Source: Ophioderma brevispina (lineage: Eukaryota > Echinodermata > Ophiuroidea > Amphilepidida > Ophiodermatidae). Taken from it: a stretch of 64,000 nt of DNA. Shown here piece after piece: positions 40,380-64,000 of this stretch (the stretch's first letter is position 1; each line of letters opens with the position of its first letter). The stretch covers positions 1 to 64,000 of the forward strand of contig JAMKCH010035202.1 in NCBI GenBank assembly GCA_023653785.1, given 5' to 3'. The notes beneath the pieces are model-generated. The model worked only from the letters and a program-made list of their open reading frames with translations, had not been told where the DNA came from and did not search any database. The translations under genes and the position numbers were made by a program.

Positions 40380-40896
40380 CTTCTTCTTCTTCTTGCGTAT
40401 GAGACAGCAGCTAAATATGTTTTAAGCGTTGGAGCCAACTCACTGTTGATTGGTTGGGGTTTGAGAAATCTGTGTCCACCGGTGGACGAAAGGTAGGGCA
40501 CTCATTGAGAATGTGATCCGCAGTCTGTAATGGAGAGCCACATAGGCAGGCTGGCGATGGCCGCAGCCCCCATCGGTGCATGTTGCTATTGAAGCGACCG
40601 ACTCCTGTGCGAATCCGGTTTAAGGTGACCCATTCCTTGCGTGGGATATTGCTGCCAGGTGGTAGTTCTGTCTTTGGTGTAATAGAGAGTTGATCTGGTC
40701 TTGGAGTATCTTGCCAGGCAGTATTCCATGTCTGTGAGATGTTGAATGGGGAACTGGAGAGTTTAGCAGCGTGTCGGCAGAAAGGTCGGCGAGAGCGCAG
40801 TCTCTGTCTACCGAGTTGGTGTGATTCTTTGACAGTGTTATGCAGCAGGCACTTGTTGTTCAGTAGGTGCTTGTTGTCCAGCAGGGCGTTATTCAC
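40380..40896 (-). pseudogene. 5'-truncated LINE: ORF2 C-terminus with (AAG)n tail
   Basis: On the minus strand a 161-codon open frame ends WVTLNRIRTGVGRFNSNMHR, WGLRPSPACLCGSPLQTADH, ILNECPTF and WLQRL. R-(I/L)-R-T-G-x-G, H-(x)-W, C-x-C-G...QT..HI...CP is the C-terminal zinc-knuckle region shared by many Jockey-group LINE proteins in animals. It ends shortly before a tail that reads AAGAAGAAGAAGAA on that strand (40394-40380), as expected at a LINE 3' terminus. The frame is uninterrupted, so the copy is younger than the others here, but it lacks endonuclease and RT. Confidence 0.82.
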
Positions 40897-42489
40897 TAGC
40901 TCAGTATGTAATTGTATATATTGATATTGAAAGTGTTATAAATAGTGATCAGCTGCTCATTCATATCATTTTCAATATGGTTTCAGAATTACAATCACAG
41001 GGTTTCGTGTACATAGACGGCTCGATCAATTGTTTAAAAATGATAACTTGGTTGAAGGCAAGCATTTAACTTGTATTACATGAGAGATAATTGTAAAAGA
41101 TTTACTCGGGGGCTAAAAATTTGAAGAATGCAACAAAACTACTAAATTAATGAAAATTTGACTGAAGATGGCGGCCGTGAAGCGTATTATTTTCAAGTGC
41201 TTACAAAAACAGTCAGTGGAAGACAAGCCATTGACATGTTTAATATGAAAGATAATTGGATAAGGATGACTATAAGACTTTAAAAATTGAAGAACAAATT
41301 CATCTATGGTTTGGAAATCCACAAAATCTAGGAAATTGGTAAAAAATAAAAAAATGGCGGATATTGAATGCAATAAATGATCAGAGCCAGATAAAGAGGG
41401 TAATTATTGGACAAATTTAGCAAAAGTGGTACAGTTGTGATTTTAGCCTTCCATTGTTAAATAAACATATCTCGAGAGTAAAGCAAGCAAATTGAACAGT
41501 ACAAACGGAATTTCAAAGCTGAGATTCTGCCCTTGACGGTGATGTAAGCATCTTGTCACAACAGTATTTTCTAATTGTCAAGGAGGTTAATGATTTATAA
41601 ATCGCAGATTTTTAATCCTTATGATGTAACACAAACGTTGGTATACATTTTATAATTTGACCCCTGTACAAACTTTACGCCCTTGTTTCTCAAATAGCAC
41701 ATGGGGGATTGTTGGGGACTTTTGATATGTTGCTCCTTACAACATCAGGAAACTATCCTGAAAAATTCAGCTTCTACTGAAGGCGGGATTACATTGTCAG
41801 CCAGAATGCTGCATACAAACATTCAAAAGAGCCATTCATAATAGAGTTACCAAATGGCACACGCATTAATCTGAGAAATAAATTGCACTCGTGAAATTAA
41901 TTGAGACCTTCAATGTGTACGTTAGAATGAAATTACTTTGCACCTGACCAGCTAATCAGAAAGTTAAAATTGTTATTTGGGACATGTGGTATTTCAATTA
42001 CTTTATTGCATCTGGTAACATCTTGAAAATGTAGTAGGTAATCGTTAATCATATTGAAGTTATTTATGGTCGGCTTCAATTGTTTGCCAATTCCGTCCGG
42101 TTCTTCCAGGTTCGCACCATTTCCATTGATCCAAACATTTAAACACAGTTACACCGGCATGAACCTCAAGTAAACTGACGGTTGGGTTTTGAAGCAATCC
42201 CTTACGTTGTGTTGGATATCGTCATTGGATAAACTGTAAACATGATTTCACATTGGGTCGAGACGTCACAATGGCCGTGAGATTATTGTTAATCATAAAC
42301 ATCCCATGAGTTCCCGTCTTCATTTTCTACTTCTAATGAGCTAATTACTCTATTGAAATGATGTCACTGATGGGAATAATTCAATATGATATATCACATA
42401 TGTAAACCAAAACTTAACGTGTTATTTCCCTTTAATTCTGGTGGTCCAGGGGTGTTCATTCCAGGAATTTTTTAATACTTGCCTTTTCA
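40897..42489. other. No supported gene
   Basis: AT-rich. A phrase TAATTTGACCCCTGTACAAA (41654-41673) matches the fold-back family F at 47880 and 48830, so a small relic of that family may sit at 41580-41700. Confidence 0.35.
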
Positions 42490-48294: not shown

Positions 48295-48965
48295 GCACTT
48301 GCCACACTCCTTTCATGGCCCCAGCTTGGATTTCAAGGTTACAAAGGGGTAAAAAATTTTAAATGTTCCGATTGTGTTGAAAAGCACACCATGATGTTTG
48401 TCTGGTTACAAGGATTCCAAAAAGGTATAGTTTATACTACCAATGGCTTATAGTTTTGGAATTATGGGGTAAAAACTGTAAAAATGATAAAAAAAAATCA
48501 ATTTTGGTTTGTACAGGAGTCAAAATTTAAAAATCACTCCAATTTTTTGTAAAATGTGGTTCAAATTGTTGGTTTAGCTCGCAGAATGAAATATAGGAAT
48601 AGTTTTGACTATCTTAAGTGTTTGGTTATTAATCAAAATGGCGAATAGAGTCAACAACTATTGGCAGCTATTGGATTTATTGACCTGTGACCTATTTTGT
48701 TGGATAACGTAGAAACTAAGCATACAAGATAAGGCAAACTATTCCTTATTTCATTCTTTTAAGCTCGGGAAACAATTTGCACCACATTGCACCACATATT
48801 ACCTGAATCAAAGCAACTTTTAACTTTTGACCCATGTACACACCAAATTTGACTTTTTCACTATTTTTACATTTTTTACCCCATAACTCCGAAACTATAA
48901 GGCATAGATAGTGTAACCTACACCTTTTTTGAATCCTTATAACCAGACAAACATCATGAAGTAAT
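48295..48965. mobile_element. Fold-back family F, copy 2
   Basis: The left arm (about 48389-48630: CATGATGTTTGTCTGGTTAC, AAGGATTCCAAAAAGGT, TTATGGGGTAAAAACTG, GGTTTGTACAGGAGTCAAAA, AGGAATAGTTTTGACTATCT) is mirrored by the right arm (about 48690-48965). Identity is about 80 percent over some 240 bp, with a centre of about 60 bp. A piece of one arm also lies at 54720-54835. Its right end meets the Penelope-like repeat at 48966 exactly, around TTCATGATG. Confidence 0.74.
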
Positions 48966-48979
48966 TTAAAACTTGACCA

Positions 48980-49073
48980 CAACACTCACATTTTGGAGTC
49001 CGAATATTTCGGTGATACCAATCACCGTCATCAGCGGGTGGAAGCTGAATCTGTCTGACAGATCCTCTTCTGA
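48980..49073 (-). repeat. Penelope-like terminal repeat (downstream copy) with hammerhead-like core
   Basis: This 94-bp block is almost identical to 53210-53303 (one substitution and one indel). On the minus strand it contains CTGATGA (49034-49028), a stem CGGTGA / TCACCG with a 6-base loop, and GAAA (49010-49007). That is the arrangement of a hammerhead ribozyme core, a motif known from Penelope-like element repeats. Stems I and III were not convincingly paired by eye. It is the 3'-side copy of an LTR-like pair around the element. Confidence 0.72.
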
Positions 49074-49154
49074 CGAAGGTATCGTCCACATATCGCATCC
49101 AAATGCGTGGGGCTGTTGTGCGGACTTTAAAGCATCCAATTCAAAGCTTTCCAT
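49074..49154 (-). pseudogene. Penelope-like reverse transcriptase, YVDD segment
   Basis: Starting at 49154 the minus strand reads MESFELDALKSAQQPHA and then, with a one-base shift, IWMRYVDDTFV. YVDD (49092-49081) is the catalytic motif of RT, and the (M)E.FE..AL..A..P..W.RYVDDTF context is that of Penelope-like RTs. The segment directly continues the frame that ends ...ILANLY at 51735. The rest of the protein (RT thumb and any GIY-YIG endonuclease) is missing, since the terminal repeat follows at once after TFV. Confidence 0.78.
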
Positions 49155-49429
49155 ATTTATTTATTTATTTATTCTTTATTCGGCAAAATCGACAAACAAT
49201 ACAAAAATAGCAAGTACTAATGAGACGTATTCAGTATCACACAAAAACAGACAACCAAGTCGATAAGCCAGGATAGCCCATAAAGTTGGCTGAATATGCC
49301 AACTTATTTCCAATGAGGTCCCAAACAAGAACTAGTGCCTGCAGAAAGGTGATAAGAAAAAAAAATACGAAAGAGGAGACTACGCCAGGGAGATAAGCTA
49401 GACATATTCAGCCAATTCTTGGTTCATTG

Positions 49430-49560
49430 TCATAGTAGACAGATGAATCTTGACCTGGTATTTAAAGGAATTCTTGTGGTCAATGGACTTGATGGTATCT
49501 GGTAATGAGTTCCAGTCAAGGGCACCATGATAGAAAAAAGACTTGGAAGCAAGACCAGAT
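49430..49560 (-). pseudogene. LINE RT C-terminal end
   Basis: The minus strand reads GLASKSFFYHGALDWNSLPD, TIKSIDHKNSFKYQVK and IHLS. (F)x.(G)A..WNSLP..I....S...FK is the last conserved block of CR1/Jockey-group RTs. It belongs to the insertion spanning 49155-51734 and is separated from its RT palm by the repeat array at 49778-50280. Confidence 0.7.
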
Positions 49561-49777
49561 GAAAATTGAATGAACTAGATCTTGTGCAATAATTATGAGT
49601 ATCTCAAAAATCGGCCTTTTGAGATATTACCTTTAAAGTTTGCCCGTTTGCATTTCCTTATACATTAAAAATTAGCTAAATTGAATGCATTTAATATATT
49701 TATCATATCATTTTCTGTATATCCATTAATTTTGAGGGTTAATGATTAAACCATTTCAGAATTACAACATAATTTGT

Positions 49778-50280
49778 CAAGTTACGTAGTTTTGCCATAT
49801 AAATTTAGGAAAAAGCAGTTATGGCAAAATACACATGCTATATTTCAATGGCTGAACACAAAATATACTTTACAAAAGAAATATAATTCTTGATATGTGT
49901 TATCTACAAAATTTTTTAGCTTGATCTTATGCTTTTTTAGTTTGATCTGAGCATCTGTAGTCCCATTAATTTGTATAGCAAAAGACCGGCACTCATAGTA
50001 TATTTTTATGACAAAACTACGTATCTCTGAGTTACGTAGTTTTGCCATGAAATAATAAGGCGATTTTGAGAAAAAAATGACACGTAACTAAGAGATACGC
50101 AGTTTTGCCAGAAAAATACCTTCAGAATGGTAAAAAGCAACCGAGTTAGGATTTGGTATCTCAGAAAGGAAGCATTTCTGGCATGTAAGACTTTGTGAAA
50201 TGAAAGTAGCGCCCCCAAATTGCCCAGAAATAACTTTATCTCAAAAAGTCAAAATTTCGAGTTACATAGTTCTGCCATAA
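49778..50280. repeat. Cluster of a 19-bp motif in both orientations
   Basis: GTTACGTAGTTTTGCCAT occurs at 49783 and 50031, with variants at 50094 (GATACGCAGTTTTGCCA) and 50262 (GTTACATAGTTCTGCCAT). The inverse ATGACAAAACTACGTATCTC is at 50008. The pair at 50008-50048 makes a 41-bp near-perfect palindrome. Spacing is irregular. The cluster divides the LINE RT from its C-terminal block, so it may be a secondary insertion. Confidence 0.62.
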
Positions 50281-51140
50281 AAGGGCCGCTCGGTCTTCCC
50301 AACATGAAGTGATAGCTTATTGGATATTAGGCACTTGTTGAATGATTCTAAATCTGAACTTAGACTACGAGAAATGACCTCGGGATCACTATGAGATGAA
50401 ATAATCACACTATCATCCGCATACAGAAGCAGCCTGTTGTGCACCGAAGTTTCCATGTCATTGCTATAGCATAAGTAGAACAGTGGGCCCAACAAGCTCC
50501 CTTGTGGCAGGCCACAAGAAAGCTGTCTAAGACTGGAATTAACACCATCGATGCACACCAGCTGCTGTCTGTTGGATAAATAGGATTTGAACCAACTTGG
50601 GTCAATTCCCATAGCCTCAAGTTTTTGACAAAGGATTTGATGGTTCACGCTGTCAAAAGCTTTTTGCACGTCAAGCAAAGGCATGCCCACAAATTTACCC
50701 ATGGAGATTTGCTGTCTGATATAATCTGTAAGAAAAATCAGACATGTTTCAGTGGAATAACCTGAACGAAATCCGGATTGATATTGATAAAGTAAATTCA
50801 CAAAACTAAGATAATCATCAACCTGAAGGTAAACACATGTTTCTAAAATTTAGAACCCAACTCAAAATGCTAACCTGGGCCGGTAATTCCCTACATCAAG
50901 CCTGCATTTTTCTTCTTAAACAAATGGACTTGACTTTGGCAGATTTCATATCATCCGGAACAGTGCTGGTGACATCGATAGTTTCACGATGTGTGTAACC
51001 AAAGGATAAAGAACTTGGTAAGCGCCATCTTTCAGGAATCTAGAATCTAGATAACCATATAGCGGATCGGCCGAGCCATTGAAAAGTGCTCTAGTTTTCG
51101 AGTTACCCCTCCCCCCACCGTACAACAAAACACAAACCAC
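50262..51140 (-). pseudogene. LINE reverse transcriptase with YADD motif
   Basis: An open frame of 179 codons (50801-50262) reads LLYQYQSGFRSGYSTETC, LLDVQKAFDSVNHQIL, LSCGLPQGSLLGPLFYLCYS, NDM and LLLYADDS, then LSLHVGKTE. These are RT motifs 1-6 of CR1/Jockey-group LINEs: two catalytic Asp in YADD, one in LLDVQKAFD, and the PQGS(L)LGPL loop. Upstream, in broken frames, are VPDDMKSAKV and a GNYRPVSIL-like piece (50860-50960). Motifs are intact in the palm, but the N-terminus and the join to the C-terminus are disrupted. Confidence 0.85.
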
Positions 51141-51734
51141 CTTTACGTTGAAGGAGAAATATATAAGTTTAAGAAAGAATGATGGTTGTGGTTGAAATTT
51201 TGGGTGGCAGGGGGATGATTTCTATGACAACAAATGAAATTTGGGATGCCAGTTAAGCGAAATTAGTATTTTTTAATGTAAAAAAGATTACATCTTATTT
51301 TTATGTATCCTTTTTGTTATTGATTATGTTTTAAACATTGCCTAAAGGGTTCAGGGAAGACTCGTTGTGGTGACATGGGATGAAAAGGATGCTTTTTTTT
51401 TTAGGAAAAGGTGAATTTTGGGGGTAAAATTCTAGACCCTTTTTTTTATATATTGTATGAAACAGAATCAAAAATATAAATGTAGAGTTGATAGTATTGC
51501 ACTGATGCATAAATTGTTTTGTTGCTAAGAAATTAAAAATATTTATTATTCGTTACGTTTTTAGCTCAAACGTGATTTTTTTGACTCAACTAAACACCCT
51601 GCCACCAAGTTTTTGACGCCCAACCATCATTTTTTAAATATTTATTACTATCCTTTGAATAGAAGATGGTTGCGTTTTGTTGAACCGAGGGATGGGTTGT
51701 CGACCATTTTGCAGTTCCAAAACCGCTGCACAAT

Positions 51735-53184
51735 ATACAAGTTAGCGAGGATGGGCTCAGCCCGGAAGTCCCTACCACATCCATGATCTTGTTGGTAGAG
51801 TTGTCCTCTGAACTTGAAATTGTCGTTGATAACAAAATTCGAGGAGATTTATTATTTGCGATACATTCAGATACGTTCGCGGTTTCCAGCTGTTATCACT
51901 TTCCAGAAAATGTTTCAACACTTGATATCTCTATCTCCAATCCAACCGGGACACTAGTAAACAAGGCAGTGACATCATAAGAATGTTAAGATTTCATTGT
52001 CATCAAGTACAAGATCTTGTATCTTGGCGACAAAGTCTTGTGAGTTCTGTATATGGTGAGGTGACTTTCCTACTAACGGCGATAAAAGGTCAGATAACAA
52101 TCTGGCTAAGTTGTACACAATAGGCCGTACTGTGATAGGTTCCTTTTTATGAACCTTGGGCAAGCCGTATATACAGGGCACAACACAAGCTGATGGTCTA
52201 AGCTTGTCATACAGTGATTGGTCAATGGCACCTTCAGCTTTCAAGTTTTTCAGAATTTTCAAAAGTTTATTTTTATATTTATTTGTGGGGTCCGTCGACA
52301 AATTGGAGTAAGTTTTTTCATCATTCAACAAGTCGTTGACCTTGCTCTCATAAGTGTCTTTATCCAGAACCACAGTGATCTTGCCCTTATCGGCGGGTAA
52401 AACGATAATATTGGGGTCTTTCTTAGGATCATTTATCGCTTTACGTTCTTTAGAAATGACATTACTAGCAGGGGATTTAGCGGTTTTCAAAATAGATGTT
52501 ACCTTAGAGCAAAGTTCCTCCTTGTTTTGTTGGTCAAGTTTGTCACACGCTAATTCAGTTGCAACGATGAATTCCTCAACGGGTAATTCCCGGGGCGAAA
52601 CACCGAAGTTTAATCCCTTACTGAGAACCGATTTCTCATCCTGGTTTAATTGGCGAGACGATAAATTAACCACCCATTTGTCTTGGATTCCAGAAACGCT
52701 GTTAGAAGTACTATTTTTCGCGATATCCTGTGCAGAAACGCTTGTTTACATTCCTTCAGTTTCCGAAATTTTGCAATATGGCGGCTTCTTACACGGTCGT
52801 TTTCCACCTGAGCTGCATTCTGGGTAAATCTGACAACTTCCTGAAATTCGTTGCTAGGCAACTTTGATTGTAAACGGTCTTTCAATTTAGGTTTTTCCGC
52901 ATTCAAAACATCGGTGGAAAAATTATGCTGGCGAATTCGTTCATTTACAAGAGCTCTCTCGGCTTTTTGGATTATTTCATGAGCGCGAGGACCCCGTATG
53001 TTAGATCTTAAAGACCCGTGGGTGTAAGGCGGGAATTATAACACGTCAATGTGTAGCGGAGATGATTGCGAGTACGAGCTAATTTTTGTGAGACTTTCTC
53101 AAGCTGTCTAGCGTCAGATAAGCAATCTTTGCCGAGATCAAATAATCGCGAATGAATGTTCTTATACGTGTTGGTATTAATCAT
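51735..53184 (-). pseudogene. Penelope-like element ORF: N-terminus and RT
   Basis: From an ATG at 53184 (minus) the frame reads MINTNTYKNIHSRLFDLGKD and ARQLEKVSQKLARTRNHLRY. After a shift near 53010 it gives GPRAHEIIQKAERALVNERI and HIAKFRKLKE. After another shift near 52700 it gives VNLSSRQLNQDEKSVLSKGL, then NIIVLPADKGKITVVLDKD, LRPSACVVPCIYGLPKVHKK and HHIQNSQDF. A third shift at 51975 leads to SYDVTALFTSVPV, then FKFRGQLYQQ and ILANLY at 51735. NLSxRQL, LPADKG, YGLPKIHK, DVTALFTSVP and the (Y)QQ..G block are diagnostic for Penelope-like RTs. The gene continues at 49154 beyond a LINE insertion. At least four frameshifts plus a stop make it dead. Confidence 0.88.
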
Positions 53185-53209
53185 GAAGAATTAATATAAA
53201 ACTTTACAA

Positions 53210-53303
53210 CAACACTCACACTTTGGAGTCCGAATATTTCGGTGATACCAATCACCGTCATCAGCGGGTGGAAGCTGAATTCTGTCTGACAGATCCTCTT
53301 CTG
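53210..53303 (-). repeat. Penelope-like terminal repeat (upstream copy) with hammerhead-like core
   Basis: Direct repeat of 48980-49073, placed 26 bp upstream of the ORF start on the minus strand. It has CTGATGA at 53264-53258 and GAAA at 53240-53237 around the same stem-loop. The position fits the LTR-like 5' repeat of a Penelope-like element, in which a self-cleaving RNA would process the transcript. Beyond 53303 the two copies diverge: this one continues into CCTGACGCTGGTGGCGTCC and the other into RT codons. Confidence 0.72.
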
Positions 53304-53365
53304 ATTCCTGACGCTGGTGGCGTCCTAGATCTTGGTGGTATTTCCAGAAGAGAATCAAACAGTTT

Positions 53366-53408
53366 TAGACATGAAGTGCATTGATTTACAAATCTGAGGG
53401 TTCTGTAG
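53366..53408. repeat. Exact 43-bp direct repeat, copy 1
   Basis: TAGACATGAAGTGCATTGAT continuing to GAGGGTTCTGTAG is identical base for base at 54193-54235, 827 bp away. It begins 62 bp beyond the Penelope upstream repeat. The DNA between the copies has no recognised feature. Confidence 0.9.
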
Positions 53409-54192: not shown

Positions 54193-54235
54193 TAGACATG
54201 AAGTGCATTGATTTACAAATCTGAGGGTTCTGTAG
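54193..54235. repeat. Exact 43-bp direct repeat, copy 2
   Basis: Second exact copy of 53366-53408. The flanks on either side differ from those of copy 1 from the first base outwards. Confidence 0.9.
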
Positions 54236-55889
54236 ATTCCACACCACTAAATATTATCTTGTCTGGGTTGGCCCACCTTCTGGCCAAAAAGTGTTTGGGA
54301 AAAGGGTAAAAAAGAGTGACGTCTAAGTTAAAATTGAAAAATAGTAGAAACTGGAACTTCCTGGGCCATATTTTGTGTTAGAAAATATTTTAAAGATAAA
54401 AATCAGCACAATATCAAGACAAAAGGTGTGTGAGGCTTACTACTGAGTAATTACAGTTCTAATTTTACACCCATCCCATAGGAATATTTTGACTAGAAGC
54501 CACAGTTTCAGAGGGGATCGGAACTCATCGTTGTCTTCATGCTTCAGTAGCTCGAAAACTCCGTGGTCAACTTATGGATTCTTCTTGCTGAATGGATGCA
54601 GAGGTCTAGCAGTCCAAGGTAATGCATAATTTAAGCAACTTAGTCGCTTCGTTAATGAGAAATTTACGTTTTAATTAGTGCCATTTTGTACATAAACCAA
54701 TGGCAATTTATTTGGTGGTGTGCAACCCTATACCTTTTGGAATCCTTACGGTTAGACGAATAACACAGTATAATTTTCAACATGATTGGATCAATTGAAA
54801 AAATTGACCCCTGTGTAATCTTTGTCTATCCCCCTCCTTAGGGCACAATTTGCGGCATTTAAGAATCACGTTTCAGGGGTCCCTGTCAGGCTGTCTGTAT
54901 ATTTAATCACTCAAACCTTTTATACTTGAGATGAGTTACAAATGTCTTTTAGCTCCCAGGCTAAATCGTGTTATCCTAATACGAGTTAGTAATCGATGGT
55001 AAAAATGAGATTAAAAGCTTTCTTTCACCGTCAACTTCAAAATTGCAGTAAAAACTTTTACGAAACCTCCAAAAGTGAAATATACTTCCCGCAACTGATT
55101 ATATTATAGCCATCCTATTTTTGATCGATATGAATCTAATATTATGGCGGTTTAATTACGAGGCTGTGGGCGTGGATATTTTTCTTCTGTGCAGAATCAA
55201 GGTTCCGATATAGGAACACACGCTCAGTCAATAACCAATTTCTGTGCAAAAAATAAACATAAAATATGACAAAATCAACAACATATGAATTTGGGAAGTT
55301 TAATCACTGGTTGAACAGGCTATTGAGTGTATCACCATTGAAAAGTTTAAGTTTCATTAAAGGCCGGCAAACAGAAATGAGAAATAAATTTAAAGGTTGT
55401 GAATAGTGAATATACCAGTCGTGATGCCGTTAAGGTGGCGAACCGATAGTAATTTGCTAAATCAAGAAAATCGAAAAAAAAAATCATCAAAACCAGATTT
55501 TTGCATGTCTGTTACAAGTACATATATCCTAACATATCCTGCCAAATGATAGGACCAGAGGCATCCCAATAAGGGCAAAATCAGAATTTTAGTTATTACT
55601 GTCCGTACGGACACTTCACAATAAAAACACCAGTAAGTGAATGGAGATTCGAATCTTTGAACACTGTCTTTTCTTCCTTTTCTGTCAATCCTCATTTGAA
55701 AAAGTAACTTGTGAGATTGTACAGACTTATACTTCCCTTTTAAGCTATTCCTGCAATTTTCAAATATTTTGACTCTTTCGGAGAAATCACTGATAGTAAT
55801 TCTTCTCCCTCGTGTGAAAGCATATCACCAAAACATCCGATCACAAATCTTGAGTTAATTGAGTAGCTATTTGGATATTAAAATCCAAA
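54236..55889. other. No gene; fragment of fold-back family F at 54720-54835
   Basis: CCTATACCTTTTGGAATCCT then TTGACCCCTGTGTAATC resembles one arm of the fold-back at 48295-48965. The rest is AT-rich and unassigned. Confidence 0.4.
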
Positions 55890-63850: not shown

Positions 63851-63860
63851 TTTGGCGTTT

Positions 63861-64000
63861 AGACTAAATTGGTTATTAGACAAGCGATCATTAGACGAAT
63901 GGGTTTAGGCAAATGGGTTTAGACTAATGGTTATTAGACCAACTGGTCATTAGACTAAATGGGTTTTTGACCAAATGGGTTTAGATACAATGGTATTAGA
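63861..64000. repeat. Tandem repeat of about 16-17 bp, reaching the window edge
   Basis: Units such as TTAGACTAAATGGGTTT, TAGACTAATGGTTA, TTAGACCAACTGGTCA and TTGACCAAATGGGTT follow without a break to the last base. About nine units are visible and the array continues outside the window. Confidence 0.85.

Follow-up and report, generated by a model that had tools for sequence, protein, structure and literature searches.

The window, that is, the whole stretch of 64,000 nucleotides of Ophioderma brevispina DNA that was analysed, carries on its minus strand a Penelope-like element (PLE) whose reverse transcriptase (RT) codons are split by a second retroelement. The N-terminal and RT coding remains of the PLE (51735..53184) begin near 53184, are spread over several frames and end with ...PILANLY, of which the last base is 51735, and the RT resumes on the same strand at 49154 with MESFELDALKSA, which opens with MESFELD, in a frame equal to that of ILANLY. 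This second piece, MESFELDALKSA...RYVDDTFV, occupies 49074..49154, and the 2580 bp between the two pieces, a length divisible by 3, form the insert (49155..51734, minus strand). The first-pass annotation had described this interruption, with the same end points and the same distance between them, and the description holds.

The assignment to PLE-type RT follows from a search with the first part of the element, which gave 640 relatives at E<=1e-5, 120 of them listed, with a best E value of 6.9e-168. Among those listed, the best relative (P0001) has 68% identity across 93% of the query, and the closest named relatives are proteins of Amphiura filiformis, together with others from Branchiostoma and fishes. 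The PLE fragments taken by themselves had no RT match in Pfam, while PF00078 is carried by their relatives.

The continuity of the two pieces was assessed without joining them, by placing each one independently, and ungapped, on the 120 listed relatives, with the left piece represented by its 28 final residues and the right piece by the 12 residues MESFELDALKSA. Leaving out 32 relatives in which the left piece scored below 40 and 2 that end before the site, the right piece was placed best directly after the left piece in 79 of the 86 usable relatives, and, in the control with shuffled right pieces, 118 of 8600 trials gave adjacency. The right piece scored best elsewhere in 7 of the 86, although 6 of these exceptions have, by eye, a comparable M/I-x-x-x-E or MExxE at the expected place, and P0117 has only the first residues of the right piece there. 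The link between LANLY and MESFE that was anticipated for related Penelope copies is thus present among the proteins of the relatives, and can be followed directly in P0001, where residues 70-410 correspond to 52742-51732, residues 410-424 to 49154-49110, and residues 415-437 to 49140-49072. On the other hand, 47 of the usable relatives have 20 residues from M to RYVDD, 12 have 21 and 5 have 22 (no RYVDD pattern was found in the other 22 of the 86), and here the distance amounts to 59 nt, which puts RYVDDTF one frame off MESFE. Given the spacing in the relatives, a 1-nt frameshift lies within the second PLE piece, so that the earlier reading of MESFE...RYVDDTF as the next expected residues is borne out for MESFE but needs correction for RYVDDTF.

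The left flank ends in ...CTAACTTGTAT, the right flank opens with ATGGAAAGC..., and the insert between them runs from ATTGTGCAG to AATAAATAAATAAAT. As the motif ATAT may be counted on one side of the junction or the other, the break is placed within 4 nt, and the ends of the insert are ambiguous to this extent. A target-site duplication would have 4 nt at most and possibly none, and none is clear. An A-rich tail of the AAAT type lies directly against MESFE, as had been claimed, but the statement that both insertion points are given to the base was too strong, given the ambiguity of 0 to 4 nt and the lack of a clear duplication.

Within the insert, the RT coding remains of a LINE, truncated at the 5' end, lie at 50274..51092 on the minus strand, in the same orientation as the PLE. 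Their identification as a non-LTR RT is based on a PF00078 match (E 3e-23) and on 1009 relatives at E<=1e-10, 120 of them listed, with identity that reaches 89% across one third of the query (P0142, P0147). The 5' end of these matches was sought up to 51100, and 118 of the 120 listed relatives provided one, with 93 of the 118 starting at 51038-51050 and the earliest at 51092; two further alignments stretch loosely to 51191 and 51104. The matches stop at 50274 in 99 of the rows of the listed relatives and resume by 49603, in the last part of the LINE (49155..49603, minus strand), which has the C-terminus (..WNSLPDTIK..LAEYV, matched to 49401), followed by approximately 245 bp, which are probably its 3' UTR, and by the A-rich tail. 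Both parts are matched at E<=0.01 by 89 of the 120 listed relatives and not by the other 31, and the residues missing between them have a median of 180 in these 89 relatives, with values of 150-200 in 85.

The remainder of the insert is of a different nature. Since the LINE coding matches cover only 51092-50274 and 49603-49401, the reading of the whole insert as a LINE was rejected, and two blocks, at 51734-51093 (642 bp) and 50273-49604 (670 bp), which together account for roughly half of the 2580 bp, represent other material. The earlier attribution of the whole insert to a LINE, with CR1/Jockey as its putative clade, is therefore retained for the presence of a same-strand LINE RT, but not for these two blocks, which are not recognisable as LINE. 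Block 1 (51093..51734, minus strand), where the only LINE coding matches are the two loose over-extensions, holds a pair of imperfect inverted repeats, each approximately 100 bp long, at 51597-51691 and 51114-51212, with about 70% identity. Block 2 (49604..50273, minus strand) has several inverted repeats and occupies the site of the missing LINE residues; no alignment of the listed LINE relatives falls wholly inside 49611-50200. Both blocks look like MITE-type insertions, the second of which would have been accompanied by a loss of LINE sequence. Two Rfam microRNA matches below threshold, at 49998-50123 and 48582-48758, were put down to hairpins formed by inverted repeats.

The PLE has itself lost a large part of its coding region. 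In the main copy, RYVDDTFV is joined directly, and in frame, to RRGSV, near the end of the ORF, a deletion that removes the remaining RT and the endonuclease; for residues 438-725 of P0001, no match in the window falls below E 0.56. The GIY-YIG endonuclease that marks canonical PLEs is accordingly missing from this copy. Among its relatives, a GIY-YIG domain scores above the cut-off in P0030 and below it in P0001 and P0058, the match in P0001 being weak (residues 631-665, E 3.8e-4, 21.1 bits against a cut-off of 22.6). The copy thus derives, by deletion, from an element of this family.

The direct terminal repeats (pseudo-LTRs, pLTRs) of the PLE are 93.6% identical over 125 columns, with the 5' repeat at 53180..53304 and the 3' repeat, which is joined directly to RYVDDTFV, at 48953..49073, both on the minus strand. 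Upstream of the 5' repeat lies a C-terminal remnant of a PLE ORF (LFDSLLEIP..RRGSV, 53288..53362, minus strand), where residues 726-749 of P0001 match 53362-53288 with an E value of 0.002, or 3.8e-4 when the 54 C-terminal residues are used alone. This remnant is a sign of a preceding, truncated tandem copy, and the pseudo-LTR or partial tandem arrangement typical of PLEs is present at this locus. There are two candidates for the start codon, one at 53184, which agrees with the annotated starts of P0002 and P0007, and an ATG at 53261, within the motif discussed below. Counted from the latter, the 3' end of the PLE falls 78-81 nt into the ORF. Comparably to this second ATG, the ORF of the Anolis element begins at stem II, and its reverse transcription begins inside the first codons, 111-118 bp in (PMC11167929); in Adineta, a pLTR takes in the first 12 codons (PMC3846280), so that a PLE 3' end located just inside the ORF would agree in kind with both.

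Each terminal repeat carries a motif of the form CTGATGA-C-(6-bp stem)-GAAA, at 53237..53264 in the 5' repeat and at 49007..49034 in the 3' repeat, on the minus strand. The window has 4 strict matches to CTGATGA...GAAA, and a hairpin that reaches up to the GAAA is found only in the two pLTR copies. The hammerheads of PLEs are described as minimal, without helix III (PMC6155905). Here, one extra C parts the hairpin from the core, which leaves no stem that abuts on both sides, the Rfam search gave no hammerhead match for either pLTR motif, and the core is paired with upstream bases in the predicted lowest-energy fold, which is not that of a hammerhead. A canonical hammerhead reading is weakened by these observations, and because of them the motif is termed hammerhead-like only, an imperfect and putative ribozyme. 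In the 5' repeat, the frame of the upstream ORF is closed by two stops within the CTGATGA motif, and in the 3' repeat, which has one A fewer, the fused YVDD frame runs through it.

The 3' end of the PLE meets a palindromic repeat of about 570 bp (48390..48958, no strand assigned), which is 71.7% identical to its own reverse complement over 593 columns and overlaps the terminal repeat by 6 nt, CATGAT. A partial relative of this palindrome lies on the other side of the PLE, at 54728-54822 (71.9% over 96 columns). On that side there is also a perfect direct repeat of 43 nt (53366-53408 and 54193-54235), the inner copy of which abuts the truncated 5' end of the PLE. Given that the two copies are both found 5' of the element, their reading as an ordinary target-site duplication of the PLE was rejected; the repeat may have entered the 5' junction as filler copied from neighbouring DNA, or may be the duplication that belongs to a 784-bp insert between the copies. 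Elsewhere in the window, a remnant of another retroelement is located at 40411-40935 on the minus strand (zf-RVT, E 1.8e-5, slightly under the Pfam cut-off), and the end of the window (63857-64000) is a degenerate tandem array with a unit containing TTAGAC. The tRNA search found no tRNA genes in the window.

As the ORF of the PLE is split, the PLE came first and the LINE later, an order that is firm, and the protein continuity over the gap in the relatives upholds the nesting as it was first proposed, with a younger LINE inside the PLE on the same strand. It is highly probable that the locus as a whole arose from a PLE in partial tandem, an internal deletion, the sense insertion of a 5'-truncated LINE into the RT codons, and later scarring. 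The PLE, with its pseudo-LTRs, would have integrated first, next to or into the palindromic repeat, retaining on its 5' side the end of the preceding truncated copy and meeting the palindrome on its 3' side with the 6-nt overlap. The deletion, which is undated, would have cost the element the middle and the end of its ORF. The LINE would then have entered the RT codons, most likely through target-primed reverse transcription, leaving an A-rich tail and a target-site duplication that is short or absent, and further insertions and losses may afterwards have produced the two blocks of inverted repeats in the LINE part. The mechanisms of integration, and the points in time at which the deletion and the two blocks arose, are what we infer from this arrangement, and the ends of the LINE and the empty site are as predicted from the proteins of relatives.

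The 5' boundary of the LINE is uncertain, and it is at this point that another order of events has to be weighed, in which a different element of the inverted-repeat type (51734-51093) broke the PLE first, and the LINE pieces arrived later, within or beside the block. The block at the 5' junction of the PLE does have inverted repeats and no convincing LINE match, but these repeats begin 43 bp inside the junction rather than at it (this stretch of approximately 43 bp, which starts at the PLE break, had no match in any of the comparisons made), and the A-rich tail lies directly against MESFE at the 3' junction, with the LINE and the PLE in a single orientation, which makes this order unlikely. 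An assembly artefact that partially joins unrelated repeats, for which the richness of the locus in repeats might be invoked, is hardly credible, given the exact continuation from one PLE piece into the other and the terminal repeats present at both ends.

The origin of the internal deletion offers a further alternative, namely that the fusion of YVDD to the ORF end arose once, in a non-autonomous PLE subfamily that was then mobilised in trans together with its pLTRs. Both terminal repeats were kept despite the loss of the remaining RT and the endonuclease, and the fusion preserves the reading frame in YVDDTFV-RRGSV. However, the window holds a single copy, which is otherwise a decayed pseudogene, and microhomology-mediated deletions inside single PLE copies have been published (PMC3846280), so that such a subfamily is improbable. 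That the copy described here belongs to a lineage of this kind, with the catalytic YVDD motif joined in frame to the ORF end, with the pLTRs and the hammerhead-like motifs retained and with trans-mobilisation similar to that of retrozymes, is about as improbable. If other copies had the same fusion of YVDD to the pLTR, they would point to a non-autonomous Penelope lineage.

Returning to the deletion derivative invaded by a LINE, the locus is a fresh instance of a well-known kind of event, with nothing outside the known kinds, and is ordinary genome debris. It shows cleanly how nesting can date one element against another, the split codons placing the arrival of the LINE to within 4 nt without a second copy; as a single locus, it does not change the general view.

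Compared with other PLEs, the element has an RT of the same family, pseudo-LTRs and the remnant of a partial tandem, but is internally deleted, lacks the endonuclease, runs in several frames, and is split by another element. Similarly, the LINE shares the RT, the 5' truncation and the A-rich 3' tail of the non-LTR retrotransposons, whereas here it is interrupted by other repeats and a median of 180 residues is missing. Published PLEs (PMC3846280) include partial tandems, copies nested with non-LTR elements, copies with internal deletions, and junctions that show microhomology but no duplication. In Adineta vaga, for example, PLEs occur in partial tandems with pLTRs, one PLE lies inside a non-LTR retrotransposon, at a junction that has microhomology and lacks a duplication, and a PLE derivative has undergone an internal deletion mediated by microhomology. 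The Ophioderma locus has in common with the Adineta vaga Penelope elements the partial tandem, the nesting with a non-LTR element, the lack of a clear duplication and the internal deletion derivatives, and differs in the direction of the nesting, given that there it is Pen2 that lies inside the non-LTR element, and here the LINE that lies inside the PLE.
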